Assembly: GCA_031081715.1 (NCBI GenBank)
Contig: JAVHMA010000010.1
Span: 1 to 64,000, forward strand
DNA: 64,000 bases
Reading direction: 5' to 3'
Source: Armatimonadota bacterium
GTDB lineage: Bacteria; Sysuimicrobiota; Sysuimicrobiia; Sysuimicrobiales; Humicultoraceae
The notes below the pieces were generated by a model. That model saw nothing but the letters and a program-made list of their open reading frames with translations, was not told where the DNA came from and searched no databases. Position numbers and translations under genes: made by a program. The first letter of the stretch is position 1, and each line of letters opens with the position of its first letter. Below are positions 42,502 to 48,504 of the stretch, one piece after another.

Positions 42502-43479
42502 CTAGCGGGCCCGGACGAGCACGAACTCGGCGAGCTCCCGGAGGCTGGCGGCCGCGGGGGTGGCGGGCAGCGGCGCGAGCGCCGCGGTGGCGCGGCGGGC
42601 GAAGGTGGCCGCGGTGTCCAGCGCGTGCCGGACCCCGCCGTAGCGGTCAACGATCGCGCGGAGCTCCTGGTGGGCGCCGTCGCCGGAGGCGTGGCGGACC
42701 AGCGCGCGCAGGCGCTGCCGGTCGCCCTCGTCAGCGCGCCGCAACGCGGTGATTACCGGTAGGGTGACTCTGCCGGCGTCGATGTCGCTCCCGATCGGCT
42801 TGCCGAGCGCCTCCGGCGTGCCGGTCAGGTCGAGGGCATCATCGGTGATCTGGAACGCCTGGCCCCAGCGCAGGCCGAACTCGGCGAGCGCGCCCGCGAC
42901 GTCGGGCCCCGCGCCCGCGATCAGCGCACCGGCCCGGCACGCCGCGGAGAACAGTCGCGCCGTCTTGCCTTCGATGATCGCGAAGTAGGTGGCCTCGTCC
43001 TCGTGGGGCTCGCCGCCCAGCTTCACCGCGGTAATCTCCGCCTGGCTCATCGCGACCGCGGCCTGTGCGATCGTGGGGGCGACCTCGGGGTGGCGAATAC
43101 GGCTGACCAGGTCGAACGCGGTGGCGAACAGGTAGTCGCCGAGCAGCACCGCCACCTGGTTGCCCCACAGCATGTTCACCGTGGCGACGCCCCGCCGCAG
43201 CTCCGCGACGTCGATGATGTCGTCGTGGATCAGCGACGCGATGTGGATGAGCTCGACCGTGCCCGCCAGCCAGAGTCGCTGCTCATCCGCCCCGCCGCAC
43301 GCCGCGGCCGAGAGCAGGGCGAGCGCCGGCCGTACGAGCTTCCCGCGCGAGGCCAGCACGTGCCCGACCAGTTCGCCGACGAACGGGTCCTCGGAGGCCA
43401 GCTCGCGCCGCAGCACACCGTCGAGAGCCTCCAGGTCGCCGGCGACGGGCCGGTAGATCGTGGCGAGGTCCGTGGCCAT
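42502..43479 (-). CDS. Trans-polyprenyl diphosphate synthase (quinone side chain type)
   Basis: A 325-residue all-alpha prenyltransferase. The first Asp motif is in 'SLIHDDIID' and the second in 'QITDDALD', with 'SRGKLVRPALALLS' upstream. It makes the long prenyl tail of mena- or ubiquinone; chain length cannot be read. Its position inside the quinol-oxidising cluster suits a quinone role. Confidence 0.9.
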   Translation of the reverse strand: MATDLATIYRPVAGDLEALDGVLRRELASEDPFVGELVGHVLASRGKLVRPALALLSAAACGGADEQRLWLAGTVELIHIASLIHDDIIDVAELRRGVATVNMLWGNQVAVLLGDYLFATAFDLVSRIRHPEVAPTIAQAAVAMSQAEITAVKLGGEPHEDEATYFAIIEGKTARLFSAACRAGALIAGAGPDVAGALAEFGLRWGQAFQITDDALDLTGTPEALGKPIGSDIDAGRVTLPVITALRRADEGDRQRLRALVRHASGDGAHQELRAIVDRYGGVRHALDTAATFARRATAALAPLPATPAAASLRELAEFVLVRAR

Positions 43480-43495: not shown

Positions 43496-43603
43496 CTAGG
43501 CCTCGGCGATCAGTCCGAACGACGCCACGAAGAGGAGCAGCAGGAAGAACAGCGCGTAGAAGATCAGGTAGCCGATCCAGACGCCGAGCGCGCGGCGCGT
43601 CAC
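43496..43603 (-). CDS. 35-residue single-helix membrane peptide
   Basis: GTG at 43603 overlaps the MvhD-like gene stop by 4 nt and the frame ends in TAG at 43496-43498. The product is almost entirely one hydrophobic helix ('GVWIGYLIFYALFFLLLLFV'). Its coupling suggests a small accessory subunit of the neighbouring membrane complex, as with small bc- or oxidase-complex peptides. It is too short for homology by eye. Confidence 0.6.
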   Translation of the reverse strand: MTRRALGVWIGYLIFYALFFLLLLFVASFGLIAEA

Positions 43604-44067
43604 GAGCCGCCCTCCTCGGCCGAGGCCCGGGCGGGCGCCGCGGGGCGGGCGGCGGCGGGCGCCGGCGGCCGCAGCCGCCCGAGCGCGTCGAGCAGACCGG
43701 CGACATCCGCCAGGAACGCCTCGCGGTCGTGCAGCCCGTGCGCGAGCATCGTCAGGCGTTCCGGCTCGACCTTGCGGCGCTGCAGCCGGCGCTGGAGCTG
43801 CTCGATGCGCTCCTGCATCAGGTAGTTCCCCTCGCGGTTCAGGCAGTCGCCGTAGGGGCAGCCGACCACAAAGACGCCGTCAGCGCCCGCGCGGAGCGCG
43901 TCCTCCAGCCACGACGGGCGGATGAACCCCGAGCAGGGCACGCGGATGAGCACGACCGACGGGTGGGCGTGCAGCCGACCCGCCTCGTCGGTGAGCCCGG
44001 CCGTGGCCACGGCCCAGTCGCATACGAACCCGACCACGCGGGGGGCCCCTGCGGCCGCGGCGCTCAC
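43600..44067 (-). CDS. MvhD/FlpD-like Fe-S protein
   Basis: 155 residues resembling the MvhD (methyl-viologen-reducing hydrogenase delta) family: 'VGFVCDWAVATAG', 'IRVPCSGFIRPSW', 'GADGVFVVGCPYGDC' and 'REGNYLMQERIEQL'. Cys16, 45, 70 and 75 could hold a [2Fe-2S] cluster; the usual second Cys of C-x2-C is Ala here. MvhD passes electrons to HdrA-type flavoproteins. GTG overlaps the cytochrome b-ferredoxin stop by 4 nt, so it likely docks to that subunit. A long Ala/Pro tail follows. Confidence 0.82.
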   Translation of the reverse strand: MSAAAAGAPRVVGFVCDWAVATAGLTDEAGRLHAHPSVVLIRVPCSGFIRPSWLEDALRAGADGVFVVGCPYGDCLNREGNYLMQERIEQLQRRLQRRKVEPERLTMLAHGLHDREAFLADVAGLLDALGRLRPPAPAAARPAAPARASAEEGGS

Positions 44068-45221
44068 GCGCGCACCGCCTCGGCGACGCGCCGCTGGAGG
44101 TCGCTCTCCATAAACGCCGGCAGCTCCAGCGCCTCGAACGGGCACGCGCCGATACAGATGCCGCACTCCACGCAGCGCGAGTCGATGACGACGGCCAGCA
44201 GCTTGCGATTGGCGGCCGCGCGCGTCGCGCCGGGGTACGGCGAGGGGACCATGACGATCGCGTTGTACGGGCAGTCGTAGTAGCAGAGCTCGCAGCCGGT
44301 GCAGTTGCCGTCCACCACCTGCGCCACGCCCGCGTGCCGGATGCCCATCGCGTGCGGATCCTCGCGGTTGACGTACGGGATCGCGAACCCCGCCACGAAG
44401 AGCAGCCCGATGCCCGCGACGATCAGGAACGGCGGGACGTAGCCCGCCAGCCAGAAGGGCAGCAGGTAGAAGACGTCGAGCCACATGGTCGTGGGCTGCA
44501 CACCCGGCTGCGCGGGCGTCCCGGAGACCGCCGGGACAACGGCGGCCAGCAGGGTCACGATCCCAAGCGAGGTCAGCACCCAGGTCGCCGGCGGCCACAC
44601 CTTGGGGTGCCGGAGCCGCACGTAGTGCCACCACAGCAGCACGTACAGCGCCGACGCCGGGCCGACGTGAAGCAGCAGCATGCGCGGCATCGTCTCGTCG
44701 GAGATGCCCGGGCCCGCCTGGAGCACCCACGCGAAGCGCTCGCCGACCAGGGGGATCGAGCGCATCAGCCGGACCAGCTCCGAGAACACGACCAGGGCTC
44801 GCTCGTCCCAGACCAGGATATAGCCGGTCACCCCGACGAAGCCGCCGAAGAGCAGGAGGAACATGCCGGAGATCCACGGGCTGTCGCGCGCGAACAGGTA
44901 GCGATCGGTGAACCAGTTGCGGAACAGGTGGAGCAGCGCCGCGATGATGAACGCGTCCGCGGAGTACCGGTGGATGCCGCGGATCAGGCCGCCGTAGGGC
45001 ACCTGCTCGGTCAGATACGCCACCGAGGCATGGGCGCCGTTGAGGCTCGGCACATAGTAGAAGAAAATGAAGATGCCCGACAGGACCAGGACGAAGAGGA
45101 AGAGGTTGGTCAGGCCGCCCGTGTAGTAGAGCGGGTTGAGGTCGGACGGGTAGACGCGGTTGATCCACACGTCCAGCCCGAGTGTCCAGCGTTGCAACGC
45201 GGTCAGGTATCGACGGTACAC
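44064..45221 (-). CDS. Cytochrome b fused to C-terminal two-cluster ferredoxin motif
   Basis: 385 residues. Residues 1-230 are a cytochrome b/b6 N-terminal domain with both haem pairs intact: H84/H98 and H185/H199, each 14 apart. Further helices run to about 285. The tail carries two 4Fe-4S motifs (C307-x2-C-x2-C-x3-C317 and C350-x2-C-x2-C-x3-C360). There is no PEWY-type Qo segment. The GTG start lies 10 nt after a small membrane protein gene. It probably moves electrons from membrane haems to the cytoplasmic side. Confidence 0.88.
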   Translation of the reverse strand: MYRRYLTALQRWTLGLDVWINRVYPSDLNPLYYTGGLTNLFLFVLVLSGIFIFFYYVPSLNGAHASVAYLTEQVPYGGLIRGIHRYSADAFIIAALLHLFRNWFTDRYLFARDSPWISGMFLLLFGGFVGVTGYILVWDERALVVFSELVRLMRSIPLVGERFAWVLQAGPGISDETMPRMLLLHVGPASALYVLLWWHYVRLRHPKVWPPATWVLTSLGIVTLLAAVVPAVSGTPAQPGVQPTTMWLDVFYLLPFWLAGYVPPFLIVAGIGLLFVAGFAIPYVNREDPHAMGIRHAGVAQVVDGNCTGCELCYYDCPYNAIVMVPSPYPGATRAAANRKLLAVVIDSRCVECGICIGACPFEALELPAFMESDLQRRVAEAVRA

Positions 45222-45231
45222 GCCGGCCCCC

Positions 45232-45456
45232 CTAGCGCTCGGCCCGCCGCGGGCCGATCATGCCCATCTTGCGGAGCAGGAGCAGGAGCAGCCCGTAGAC
45301 GATGAAGATAGTCCCCAGCGCCGCGCCCCCGATCTGCCAGTACACCCGCCGCTCGGGCGACCCCAGGATCTCGCTGATGACAATGACCAACGCGCACGCA
45401 AGGCCCACGGCCGACAGCACAACGACCCCCGGGGCGTAGCGGCTGCGGTCAGACAC
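45232..45456 (-). CDS. Small two-helix membrane protein of the Rieske/b cluster
   Basis: 74 residues with two hydrophobic helices (about 10-28 and 42-61) and a basic C-terminus. I do not recognise it. The GTG start overlaps the upstream small gene by 8 nt, and its stop lies 10 nt before the cytochrome b-ferredoxin gene. It is likely a structural subunit of the complex. Confidence 0.65.
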   Translation of the reverse strand: MSDRSRYAPGVVVLSAVGLACALVIVISEILGSPERRVYWQIGGAALGTIFIVYGLLLLLLRKMGMIGPRRAER

Positions 45457-45718
45457 GGCGAGAGCCCTCCGGCCGGCCCCGGTCCAGGATGCGGTCGAAC
45501 AGCGCCACCGGCCGCCGCACGCGGCCGGCGGCGCGGTCCGCGGCGTAGATCAGCAGCGCGAGATACACCATGCTCCCCAGGAAGAGCACCATCCACCCCA
45601 GCGCCTCCAGCGACCCGTACAGCCGCGCGCCGTCGAGCGCCGCGCGCACACCCTGCCACAGCCGCGAGAACGACGCGACCGCAGCGGCGAACACCGCCCA
45701 GGAGAGCGCCGTCCGCAT
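45449..45718 (-). CDS. Small membrane protein of the Rieske/b cluster
   Basis: 89 residues with an N-terminal hydrophobic stretch and one clear helix (about 40-60, 'LGWMVLFLGSMVYLALLIYA'), ending in a charged tail. I do not recognise it. It follows the cytochrome b gene by 4 nt. Confidence 0.65.
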   Translation of the reverse strand: MRTALSWAVFAAAVASFSRLWQGVRAALDGARLYGSLEALGWMVLFLGSMVYLALLIYAADRAAGRVRRPVALFDRILDRGRPEGSRRV

Positions 45719-45722
45719 CGCG

Positions 45723-46883
45723 CTACGTGTGCGCCTCCGCGCGCGCGGGCCGGGGCGGCGGCGCCGGCGGCGCCTGCGCCTGCCGCCGGCGGTACCGGAC
45801 CTCCCAGACCAGCGCCCCGGACAGCACGAGGATCGTCGTCAGCAGCACGAGCGGCGGCTCGCGCTCGATCACCGCGATGTTGAACATGATCAGCGCCGTG
45901 AAGACCAGGAAGTAGACCAGCGCGAGCAGGCCCACGACGAAGAAGAACGGCCGCTCGAGCGGGCGCCGCCCCTTGCCGCGGTCGAGGAAGGGCACCAGCA
46001 TGCCGAACCCGATGAGCAGACCGGGCCCGAGCCCGGCCCACAGCGGCGGCGTGTACTTCACGTACTGGTAGAGCGCCAGGAAGTACCAGTCCGAGAGGAT
46101 GGGCAGCGGCGTCCGGTTGGGGTCGGCGCGCCGGCCCAGCTCGGCCGGCAGGACGTAGCTCGTCACCACCAGCATGGCCGTGAACAGCAGCACCGGGAAC
46201 AGTGACATGTTGAGCCGCCGCCGGCGCGTGCGGAAGAAGAACACCTCGGCGACGATAAGGAGGACGAGCGAGATCCCGAAGTGGAGCGCGTAGAACCGCG
46301 TCAGCGTCGCGGCGCCGACCGCGGGCCCGCCCAGGAACAGGTAGGCGATCATCGAGCCCACCTGGAACTGCTCGCCGATGACCGGGATCTTCGCGGTGAG
46401 CTCGTCGAAGAACACCGGCACCGTAAGCACCGTCTTCGCCGCCCAGAACGCCCGCTGGTTCCAGATCAGCAGGTAGCCGGTGATGCCGGAGATCATCGCC
46501 AGGACGAGCCCGGCAAACGCCCAGATCCACGACAGCTCGCCCGGCTTCTTGTACTCGCCCAGGAAGTACATGCGGTAGATGCGCAGGATGATCGTGATGA
46601 TCAGGCCGTCGGCCGCGTACTTGTGCATGCCGCGCCACAGCCAGCCGAAGGGAATGTCGTGCTGGATGCGCAGAATCGAATTGTACGCGCCTGTCGGCGT
46701 CGGCTCGTACCAGAACATCAGCACGACGCCGCTGACCACGGTCACGATCCAGAAGTAGTACAGCATGGGGCCCAGGAGGAACAGCGGGTTCGCCTGCCGG
46801 TCGACCAGCGTCTCGTCGAACAGGTCGAGCTTGGCGCGGCGGTCGCGGTACCACTCCTGCAGGTTCGCGAGCATGGTGCTCAT
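45723..46883 (-). CDS. Full-length cytochrome b/b6 lacking haem bH ligands
   Basis: A 386-residue subunit with about eight helices. It aligns well with cytochrome b6: 'RGMHKYAADGLIITIILRIY' and 'RFYALHFGISLVLL'. H87 and H201, the haem bL ligands, are present. The bH positions 14 residues later are Arg101 and Phe215, so haem bH cannot bind as usual. The Qo motif PEWY reads SDWY in 'LPILSDWYFLALYQ'. It follows the Rieske gene by 30 nt. This is the quinol-oxidation core of an unusual complex. Confidence 0.9.
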   Translation of the reverse strand: MSTMLANLQEWYRDRRAKLDLFDETLVDRQANPLFLLGPMLYYFWIVTVVSGVVLMFWYEPTPTGAYNSILRIQHDIPFGWLWRGMHKYAADGLIITIILRIYRMYFLGEYKKPGELSWIWAFAGLVLAMISGITGYLLIWNQRAFWAAKTVLTVPVFFDELTAKIPVIGEQFQVGSMIAYLFLGGPAVGAATLTRFYALHFGISLVLLIVAEVFFFRTRRRRLNMSLFPVLLFTAMLVVTSYVLPAELGRRADPNRTPLPILSDWYFLALYQYVKYTPPLWAGLGPGLLIGFGMLVPFLDRGKGRRPLERPFFFVVGLLALVYFLVFTALIMFNIAVIEREPPLVLLTTILVLSGALVWEVRYRRRQAQAPPAPPPRPARAEAHT

Positions 46884-46913
46884 CGGCGCGTCCGGCTCCG
46901 CGGGGGCATCGGC

Positions 46914-47576
46914 TCAGGCGATCCCGCCCGGCTCGACCCGCTCCACCAAGATCCGCCCGGCCTCGATCGTATAGAAGAAGGTGCGCGGCGGCCGCGGCGC
47001 GGGGCCGGAGAGCACGCGCCCGGGCATCGCCGGATCGGCGGGGTCGTAGATGCTCAGGTGGCACGGGCAGGCCATGAGCGCGTGGCGGCGGTTCTCGGGC
47101 GGCACATAGCCCCCGTAGCCCGAGGTCACCTCGCGCCACTCGGGAACGAAATTGTAGATGCAGCCCAGGTGCGGGCAGATCCGGGAGAACGCGATGACGT
47201 CGCTCTCGGTGAACTGCGGGGTGAGGCCCACGGTCCGCACCCAATCCCAGGGCAGCCGGATGCGCTGCGGCAGCCGGATGATGACGCCCGGCACGGCCTG
47301 GGTCTTGAACCCCTCCGGGGTGTACTGCGGGTAGCGTTGCGTGAAGACGAAGTACCGGAAATCCCACGGCTTCGCCAGCTCCGCCAGCGTCGCCGCGACC
47401 ACCGGCTCACCGGTCACGATGTCGCCCGCGGTCGGCGTGATGACGGCGAATGGCTCGACGTTGGGTTTGAGGAACCGCAGCAGCGGCGAGGAGAACGCGA
47501 CCAGCCCGCCTACAAGCGGCAGGCTGGCGGCCCACTTGAGGAACCGCCGGCGGTCCATCGCCTGGTCCTGTGCCAT
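46914..47576 (-). CDS. Rieske [2Fe-2S] protein
   Basis: 220 residues. The Tat-type N-terminus DRRRFLKWAAS acts as membrane anchor. The cluster-binding loops are 'CPHLGC' and 'CPCHLS', giving the two Cys and two His of a Rieske centre. The insert between them is long, about 43 residues. It accepts one electron from quinol and passes it to the dihaem cytochrome c encoded 10 nt upstream. Confidence 0.93.
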   Translation of the reverse strand: MAQDQAMDRRRFLKWAASLPLVGGLVAFSSPLLRFLKPNVEPFAVITPTAGDIVTGEPVVAATLAELAKPWDFRYFVFTQRYPQYTPEGFKTQAVPGVIIRLPQRIRLPWDWVRTVGLTPQFTESDVIAFSRICPHLGCIYNFVPEWREVTSGYGGYVPPENRRHALMACPCHLSIYDPADPAMPGRVLSGPAPRPPRTFFYTIEAGRILVERVEPGGIA

Positions 47577-47586
47577 CGCCCCCGTC

Positions 47587-48504
47587 CTACTGGCCGCGGC
47601 CGGGCTCGTACTCGTAGAGGAACGTCCACAGGTAGTCCACGAGCGCCCAGACCTCGTCCTCGGTGAGTTTGCCCTGGTAGGCCGGCATGTGGCCGCGGCC
47701 GATCCAGATCGCCTGGTAGAGTTCCGACGGCTTGCGCTGCAGCATCAGGTTCACGTCCGTGAAGATCCCCGGCCCCTCGCCCTGCGCCCAGCCCCACAGC
47801 CGGGCGGCCATCTCCCCGGAGAGCGCGCCGCCGCGGCCGCTCCCGTCGGGGCCGTGGCAGGCCGCGCACGTGGCCTGCCGGCCGCCGCCGATGTCCAGCG
47901 CCCGGTTCCGGTAGAGGTCGCGGCCGCGGGCCACCTGCGCCGGGGTCGTTGACCACGTCTTCACGTAGAACAGTACATCCCAGATCTGGTCGTCGGTCAA
48001 TGTCGGGAAACCTCGGTTGGCGCCGTACGCGGCCTTGGGGCCGAACGCCGGCATGGCCGTGTGCGGCCGGCCGAGCTTGATCGTCTCGAAGAGCGAGAAC
48101 GGCGAGTTCAGGCGCTGCGCGACCTGGTTGTGGAAGTTAGCCGGTCGCGACGGCAGATCCTCGCCCTTCACCGTCACGCCGAAGATGCGAAAGAAGTCGG
48201 TCAACGGGTTCTTGTGCGGGGCCACCAGCGTCGCGGCCGCCGGCCCGTCCCCGAACCCCTCCTGGCCGTGGCACGGCCAGCACGCCTGCTCGTACACGCG
48301 TCGGCCGCGCGCCGCCGACGGCTTCGGGTCGACCGGCGCCAGCGGCCACGGCGGCGGCGCCTGCGCCAGCCCGGCCCCCTGGGACGTCACAGCCCCGCGC
48401 AGCGGAACCGTCGGCTGACAGCCAGCGGCGACCGCCGCGAGCAACACCAGGATGACGAGCGCGCGGGACTGACGCGAGAGCACGCGGTACATCACGGCCG
48501 TCAT
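47587..48504 (-). CDS. Dihaem cytochrome c lipoprotein
   Basis: 305 residues with lipobox 'VAAGC' and two class I haem domains: CWPCH with distal Met in 'AMPAF', and CAACH with 'HMPAY'. It replaces cytochrome c1 as the electron acceptor of the Rieske protein, on the outer face of the membrane. It lies 37 nt after the carboxypeptidase-regulatory-domain gene and 10 nt before the Rieske gene. Confidence 0.9.
   Translation of the reverse strand: MTAVMYRVLSRQSRALVILVLLAAVAAGCQPTVPLRGAVTSQGAGLAQAPPPWPLAPVDPKPSAARGRRVYEQACWPCHGQEGFGDGPAAATLVAPHKNPLTDFFRIFGVTVKGEDLPSRPANFHNQVAQRLNSPFSLFETIKLGRPHTAMPAFGPKAAYGANRGFPTLTDDQIWDVLFYVKTWSTTPAQVARGRDLYRNRALDIGGGRQATCAACHGPDGSGRGGALSGEMAARLWGWAQGEGPGIFTDVNLMLQRKPSELYQAIWIGRGHMPAYQGKLTEDEVWALVDYLWTFLYEYEPGRGQ

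Follow-up and report, generated by a model that had tools for sequence, protein, structure and literature searches.

The operon described here encodes a Rieske protein together with two unlike cytochromes b, one of which ends in a two-[4Fe-4S] domain, and the question that it raises is where the second electron of quinol oxidation would go in an enzyme assembled from such parts. The window that was analyzed is a stretch of 64,000 nucleotides at the start of contig JAVHMA010000010.1 (GenBank assembly GCA_031081715.1), in which the operon occupies the minus strand from 48504 to 43496. All eight genes that the first-pass annotation of this DNA had assigned to the operon were found there, and they are listed in Table 1.

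Gene content and conservation of the operon

Table 1. Genes of the Rieske/cytochrome b operon, in the order in which they are read, with the evidence for each assignment.
Gene product	Coordinates	Strand	Evidence and remarks
Dihaem cytochrome c lipoprotein, 305 aa	47587..48504	-	Two CxxCH, lipobox; Pfam Cytochrome_CBB3/Cytochrom_C; first in the conserved order
Tat-exported Rieske [2Fe-2S] protein, 220 aa	46914..47576	-	RRRFLK signal; CPHLGC, CPCHLSIYD; PDB Rieske matches including SoxF
Cytochrome b1, 386 aa, ~8 TM	45723..46883	-	Qo motif SDWY, haem bL His87/His201; cytochrome b6 alignment
Small membrane protein, 89 aa	45449..45718	-	Present in 25 related loci
Small membrane protein, 74 aa, two predicted TM helices	45232..45456	-	TM scan; present in 20 related loci
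Cytochrome b2, 385 aa, 6 TM, C-terminal 2x[4Fe-4S]	44064..45221	-	Pfam, PDB alignments, AF2 helix pattern, Foldseek
FlpD/MvhD-like [2Fe-2S] protein, 155 aa, Cys16/45/69/74	43600..44067	-	PF02662, 99.9 bits
Single-helix peptide, 35 aa, C-terminus SFGLIAEA	43496..43603	-	Present in 23 related loci and in G151

The genes are closely packed: start and stop codons overlap as GTGA at the junctions between b2 and FlpD and between FlpD and the 35-aa peptide, and the ORFs for the 89-aa and 74-aa membrane proteins overlap by 8 bp. The gene order recurs in ~25 related loci from seven families of one order, and the operon is found with its genes in the same order in 37 of 43 genomes of Sysuimicrobiota/CSP1-3, an uncultivated phylum. 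It is also present in a single genome (designated G151) from a small, distantly related phylum, where the terminal peptide ends in ASFGLIAEV. The first-pass annotation had proposed a search for this order in other genomes, and conservation is what was found; chance is far too weak to explain the recurrence. The 89-aa membrane protein has no match in Pfam or NCBIfam. The operon includes no gene for a hydrogenase, a flavin subunit or a dedicated acceptor enzyme, and no NAD(P) oxidoreductase gene lies within it or was seen in its conserved neighbourhood. A search of the open literature returned no description of the gene set, of which a prior mention is possible.

Two unlike cytochromes b

The first cytochrome b of the operon, b1, had been annotated as full-length, but both ligands of haem bH are absent from it. 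The Qo motif reads ILSDWY, and its SDWY portion, like the p-side bL ligands His87 and His201, is invariant in 27/27 relatives and in G151, whereas both n-side bH histidines are missing from all 28 of these b1 sequences. The helix-B ligand position is occupied by an invariant Arg101 and the helix-D position by Phe, with an invariant Glu213 nearby. The agreement among 28 genomes and the invariance of Arg101 and Glu213 rule out an assembly or sequencing error, or chance, as the source of the missing ligands, and the loss is specific, since the helix-B His pair is kept in all 20 control cytochromes b from other Rieske/cytochrome b complexes, seven of which belong to the same phylum.

Cytochrome b2 has all four haem ligands (His84, His98, His185 and His199), which are invariant, together with the eight Fe-S cysteines, in 26/26 sequences, and its C-terminus carries two CxxCxxCxxxCP motifs corresponding to two [4Fe-4S] clusters. 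Foldseek matches b2 to the cytochrome b of bc1; the AF2 models are of single chains and of middling confidence, with a mean pLDDT of 59. Homology, together with the order of helices and haem ligands, shows the Fe-S tail to have a predicted location on the cytoplasmic (n) side of the membrane. A periplasmic tail, which the first-pass annotation had regarded as incompatible with its reading, is rejected on the occurrence of bL before bH ligands in helices B and D and on the count of six TM helices. A haem cn of the b6f type is likewise rejected for both b1 and b2, because the Cys is absent (the residue in b2 is Tyr33). A plain statement that b2 has lost the PEWY motif had to be softened, as Asp249, at the acidic position of that motif, is kept in 25 of 26 sequences; given this residue, a p-side quinone pocket in b2 may be conceivable.

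The two genes are the only cytochrome b genes in the genome, so that with b1 alone the bL electron would have nowhere further to go. Pairwise distances for b1 and b2 are correlated (r = 0.92) and their trees show matching branching, G151 included; the two have therefore been inherited as a pair. A recent duplication within the operon is not favoured as their origin, since b1 groups with the ordinary cytochromes b of bc complexes and b2 with a widespread family in which cytochrome b, ferredoxin and FlpD are fused, the two sides of the tree being separated with an SH-aLRT support of 99. Members of this fused family occur as a single chain in ~13 distant genomes, and such relatives lie beside terminal oxidases in other phyla. 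They resemble the b2-ferredoxin-FlpD module in their four haem histidines and in their domain order (dihaem cytochrome b, two [4Fe-4S], FlpD), which in the operon is split over two genes, b2 and then FlpD; they differ in that Rieske and b1 genes are not nearby. Because the parts occur fused in one chain elsewhere, a physical contact between the ferredoxin domain of b2 and FlpD is supported; a tandem of ferredoxin and FlpD domains is also present in NCBIfam HdrA2.

A proposed asymmetric heterodimer

On the high-potential side, the ligands of the Rieske cluster are intact and kept in relatives, within a domain that is divergent (18.4 bits versus a Pfam cut-off of 20.3). The protein retains the Ser and Tyr that are linked to high potential; two Ser-bearing anammox Rieske proteins were measured at +303 and +335 mV, and a high Rieske potential allows a very low bP (PMC12954380). 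The cytochrome c, with haem motifs CWPCH and CAACH and a lipobox ending in Cys, probably takes up electrons from the Rieske protein.

It is most likely that b1 and b2 form the two halves of one cytochrome b heterodimer, a reading favoured by the presence of one Rieske gene, one conserved gene order and overlapping genes, and electrons probably have to cross from the b1 half to the b2 half. As b1 has no bH, an electron on bL(b1) would have to cross the dimer, and an exit of this electron through the second cytochrome b gains support from the loss of bH. Quinol would be oxidized at the Qo site of b1, the first electron passing to the Rieske cluster, the dihaem cytochrome c and then a terminal oxidase, and the second from bL(b1) to bL(b2) and bH(b2), to exit on the n-side. 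This would be the sole haem path from Qo, and beyond it the electron could enter either the Fe-S/FlpD arm or an n-side quinone. FlpD would dock on the cytoplasmic two-[4Fe-4S] domain of b2, and the exit that we prefer would lead through this ferredoxin domain and FlpD to a cytoplasmic low-potential acceptor, e.g., ferredoxin. In its outward version the scheme would amount to quinol-based electron bifurcation without Hdr flavoproteins.

An asymmetric Rieske/cytochrome b heterodimer with cross-dimer transfer and outward exit through the Fe-S/FlpD arm is the best explanation that we can offer, and we hold it with slightly less than even confidence. The full proposal, in which a natural heterodimer of a Qo-bearing, mono-haem b1 and a dihaem b2-ferredoxin/FlpD bifurcates the electrons of quinol to a cytoplasmic low-potential carrier with obligatory bL-bL transfer, is put forward more tentatively. 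We infer the direction of flow, the identity of the acceptor and the potentials, the last of which a sequence does not give. Outward flow would be uphill, because two-[4Fe-4S] ferredoxins usually lie lower in potential than b haems.

Alternative readings and known systems

A different direction of flow through the same asymmetric heterodimer is a serious contender, if still a doubtful one. The n-side arm would then be an electron entry and the Q-cycle would be spread over both halves, the Qo electron crossing to b2 and reducing quinone at an n-side site by bH(b2), while FlpD and the ferredoxin domain would feed electrons from reduced cytoplasmic ferredoxin (e.g., from a 2-oxoacid:ferredoxin oxidoreductase) into the same site, much like ferredoxin-driven cyclic flow. 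In the Hdr enzymes FlpD and its adjacent ferredoxin domain are the electron entry arm and not the exit, and NCBIfam HdrA2 has the same tandem, which counts against the outward direction. Transfer from [4Fe-4S] to a b haem would be downhill at typical potentials, and reduced ferredoxin is to be expected from the oxoacid:ferredoxin oxidoreductase gamma domain found in 42/43 genomes of the order. Asp17 and Arg204 of b2, which are kept in the phylum, align with Asp20 and Arg207 of cytochrome b6, which we take to lie near the n-side quinone/haem cn site. The n-side pocket is nonetheless putative: the b2 of G151 is without Arg204, the Cys for haem cn is missing as noted above, and an entry point for NADH already exists in complex I (NuoF-type domain, 40/43).

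It is unlikely that the locus holds two separate enzymes that are merely co-transcribed, namely a homodimeric Rieske complex of b1 with bL haems only and a b2-ferredoxin-FlpD module acting as a ferredoxin:quinone or ferredoxin:oxidase enzyme. The fused relatives that adjoin terminal oxidases indicate that the latter module can work alone, but the bL electron of a b1 homodimer would be without an acceptor beyond the other bL, and the pair is co-inherited across two phyla as the only cytochrome b set in the genome.

The FlpD-like protein belongs clearly to its family, matching MvhD (5odc_D, E 3.7e-22) and the C-terminal domain of HdrA2 (77.6 bits) in addition to PF02662, and it is the only FlpD in the genome. 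From this membership the first-pass annotation had drawn the idea that FlpD would supply an HdrA-type, flavin-based bifurcating module with electrons, and it had suggested that HdrA-like genes be sought elsewhere in the genome; none was detected at E <= 1e-20 in this 97%-complete genome. A homologue is present in seven of the 37 operon-bearing genomes, but HdrA was not detected in the other 30, FlpD copies additional to any copy in the operon occur in most of the phylum's HdrA-bearing genomes, and the operon has no flavin subunit of its own, so that coupling to Hdr is rejected as highly improbable. What survives of the bifurcating complex as first annotated is an unusual Rieske/cytochrome b complex with an n-side Fe-S arm and a conserved gene order.

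Returning to the preferred heterodimer with outward exit, its bearing on known enzymes lies chiefly in the bL-bL step. It is a long-standing matter of dispute whether, under physiological conditions, electrons cross between the halves of the bc1 dimer, and in the literature surveyed the main evidence for such a route comes from engineered dimers in which Qo is switched off in one half and bH in the other. In bc1 dimers cross-inactivated by G158W in one cytochrome b and H212N in the other, electrons pass from bL to bL within milliseconds across an edge-to-edge distance of 14 A (PMC4330944). The operon appears to encode a natural enzyme of this cross-inactivated design, conserved across one phylum and also found in another: Qo belongs to a half that lacks bH, bH to a half that lacks a normal Qo, and the bL-bL bridge would be the sole link. 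It differs from the engineered dimers in being natural, in using two separate genes and in having a bH-bearing half that runs into Fe-S clusters. As judged from its sequence, b1 would have no within-monomer route from bL to bH. If the reading is true, it would settle the bL-bL bridge as a possible obligatory route, and it would define a new Rieske/cytochrome b enzyme through which cytoplasmic iron-sulfur carriers are linked directly with the quinone pool, whether quinol serves as a source of low-potential electrons or the enzyme accepts electrons from ferredoxin.

The operon, whose product would be a relative of respiratory complex III, shares with bc1 and b6f a Rieske protein, a cytochrome c and a cytochrome b (b1) that has the Qo motif and bL and groups with the bc proteins; it departs from them in its two unlike cytochrome b genes, the missing bH ligands of b1, the ferredoxin tail of b2, FlpD, and the lack of the haem cn Cys. 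A bifurcation of quinol electrons toward a low-potential acceptor in the cytoplasm has already been proposed for Rieske/cytochrome b complexes of the anammox bacterium Kuenenia with an NAD(P) oxidoreductase (PMC12954380). These complexes are similar in their proposed use of n-side Fe-S clusters and in their Ser-type, high-potential Rieske proteins. They have features of their own, i.e., bP, bN, haem cN, the NAD(P) oxidoreductase, a multihaem cytochrome c and a modelled central homodimer haem, and, unlike the operon, no FlpD or second cytochrome b is described for them in the parts of the account consulted (PMC12954380). HdrABC-MvhAGD and HdrA2 likewise place a FlpD/MvhD [2Fe-2S] protein by a two-[4Fe-4S] domain, but the operon is without the flavin-binding HdrA part, HdrBC and the hydrogenase, and its Fe-S tandem is joined to a membrane cytochrome b. 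The best NCBIfam matches of b1 and b2 are to the ExtP and cytochrome b6 models, which, unlike the operon, include no ferredoxin or FlpD, and these matches are sub-threshold, with scores of 120-130 versus cut-offs of 290-325.

The operon, its conservation and its surroundings

The eight-gene set that the first-pass annotation described, with a two-[4Fe-4S] tail on the second cytochrome b (b2) and an MvhD-like protein (here FlpD), is encoded in full at 48504-43496, and three overlapping junctions (89/74 aa, b2/FlpD and FlpD/35 aa) fit one translation-coupled operon. The first cytochrome b (b1) and b2 are the only cytochrome b genes of this genome, which has a single haem-copper oxidase. Six further Rieske-domain genes, on its contigs C7, C12, C30, C36, C37 and C46, score far above the operon Rieske.

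Genes of the operon (window 48504-43496) and the gene that follows it
Product	Place	Coordinates	Strand	Support
Dihaem cytochrome c lipoprotein	1st		-	Pfam
Tat-type Rieske protein	2nd		-	both ligand motifs; divergent, below Pfam cut-off
Cytochrome b, b1 (386 aa)	3rd	45723-46883	-	Pfam
Small membrane protein, 89 aa	4th		-	
Small membrane protein, 74 aa	5th		-	
Cytochrome b with two-[4Fe-4S] tail, b2 (385 aa)	6th	44064-45221	-	Pfam, b2 and ferredoxin domain
FlpD/MvhD-like protein	7th		-	Pfam
Membrane peptide, 35 aa	8th		-	
Polyprenyl diphosphate synthase	after operon	42502-43479		

Of 43 genomes in the order to which this one belongs, 37 have a b2 orthologue, and the same gene appears in records titled Armatimonadetes, Terrabacteria ANGP1, Bacillota (Centralia) and Bacterium HR32, titles that would agree with Sysuimicrobiota (CSP1-3; PMC11604079), a phylum of a single order. 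Conservation of gene order, which had been named as a check, is borne out by ~25 fetched loci from seven families (a few of them without a score for the 74-aa protein, two or three without one for the 35-aa peptide), and by G151, a distant genome outside the phylum, which carries the full gene set at L137:3493-11000, including a small peptide ending ASFGLIAEV. The other three of four genomes examined from the very small phylum of G151 lack b1, and its operon suggests either transfer or an old origin.

The polyprenyl diphosphate synthase gene comes after the operon in 26/26 loci and possibly makes the quinone side chain; the upstream flank usually holds cytochrome c maturation genes. In one family (f4; L040, L048 and relatives), a large membrane protein of 464 aa, possibly an oxidase subunit, is encoded with small cytochromes c after the operon, ~2-4 kb past the b2 start, which suggests a direct respiratory link. 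Four genomes of one genus in the family of the window's own genome (G002, G008, G009, G010; L143) lack the b2 of the operon and have HdrA and FlpD genes, and two of them (G002, G010) encode an ordinary Rieske/cytb complex (cytochrome b ~357 aa); here the operon has apparently been replaced.

Haem ligands and topology of the two cytochromes b

Aligned to cytochrome b6, b1 keeps both ligands of the p-side haem bL (His87 and His201) and a Qo motif, ILSDWY; at the positions that would bind the n-side haem bH, helix B has Arg101 and helix D has Phe/Tyr. His87, His201, SDWY and Arg101 are invariant in 27/27 relatives and G151, none of which has a bH-ligand His in helix D. Glu213, near the missing helix-D ligand, is equally invariant, and an Arg-Glu pair would occupy the space of haem bH. 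The helix-B His pair is present in every one of 20 cytochromes b used as controls, all drawn from ordinary Rieske/cytb complexes and seven of them from the same phylum. No b1 of the operon's kind was found in ~340 other distant genomes. The complex has the Rieske protein, Qo motif and bL of its class, and because its Qo-bearing subunit is without bH it is a variant of the Rieske/cytb complexes rather than an ordinary member. We found no account of it in the open-access literature, key subscription reviews lying outside that search.

In b2, the four haem His and eight ferredoxin Cys are kept in 26/26 sequences, the Qo position reads V/L-D-W/V-F instead of PEWY, and the FWAA found in the cd helix of b1 is missing; since the acid at the Qo position is kept in 25 of the 26, a residual p-side quinone pocket is possible. 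In b1 and b2 alike, helices B and D carry the bL ligand ahead of the bH position, which fixes the n-side. Given this ligand order and the six predicted transmembrane helices ahead of it, the ferredoxin domain must, on sequence grounds, lie on the n-side; a periplasmic tail would have told against the original proposal. AlphaFold2 models are moderate only (mean pLDDT 59), and Foldseek matches the b2 model to bc1 cytochrome b; b1 and b2 would form a heterodimer.

Phylogeny and fused relatives

Phylogenetic analysis of 57 cytochromes b with IQ-TREE resolved four groups. The b1 group (12 rows, SH-aLRT 99) is placed with ordinary bc cytochromes b (99), and the b2 group (12 rows, support 90) falls on the opposite side of the tree, with fused cytb-2x[4Fe-4S]-FlpD proteins of other phyla. 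Internal branching matches between the two groups and their pairwise distances correlate at 0.92 (in part the common ancestry of the genomes), so that b1 and b2 travel together. The fused proteins (L056:8031-10058, L123-L136; ~520-710 aa), widespread and found in ~13 distant bacterial genomes, join a dihaem cytochrome b, two [4Fe-4S] clusters and an FlpD-like domain. Judged by reading the sequences, their neighbours are mostly SCO-like proteins and subunits I/II of cytochrome oxidase, and no Rieske gene lies nearby. The literature searched held no description of their function. The fused proteins mark the ferredoxin domain and FlpD as physical partners, and so does the HdrA2 model, which carries the same tandem at its C-terminus.

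Proposed route and direction of electron flow

Quinol would be oxidised at the Qo site of b1, with the Rieske electron passing to cytochrome c. The bL electron would have no bH of b1 to reach, and its path in the putative heterodimer would run bL(b1)-bL(b2)-bH(b2), continuing either into the ferredoxin domain and FlpD or onto n-side quinone. Electrons were made to take this route in engineered bc1 dimers, one half of which had no working Qo and the other no bH; bL-bL transfer over 14 A takes milliseconds there (PMC4330944).

The proposed delivery from FlpD to a flavin-based Hdr module fails: HdrA was not detected in the genome of the window, nor in 30 of the 37 operon-bearing genomes, in many of which the operon FlpD is the sole FlpD.

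Outward flow, in which electrons from bH(b2) leave through the ferredoxin domain and FlpD, is favoured only slightly. The operon Rieske keeps Ser and Tyr near its cluster, and comparable anammox proteins have potentials of +303 and +335 mV, which in their authors' view allows the bP haem a potential so low that NAD(P) could be reduced (PMC12954380). Inward flow, with electrons entering by the FlpD-ferredoxin arm, is only a little less favoured. In its favour, oxoacid:ferredoxin oxidoreductase domains occur in 42/43 genomes, haems normally receive electrons from low-potential clusters, and in Hdr enzymes FlpD-ferredoxin serves as the electron entry arm.
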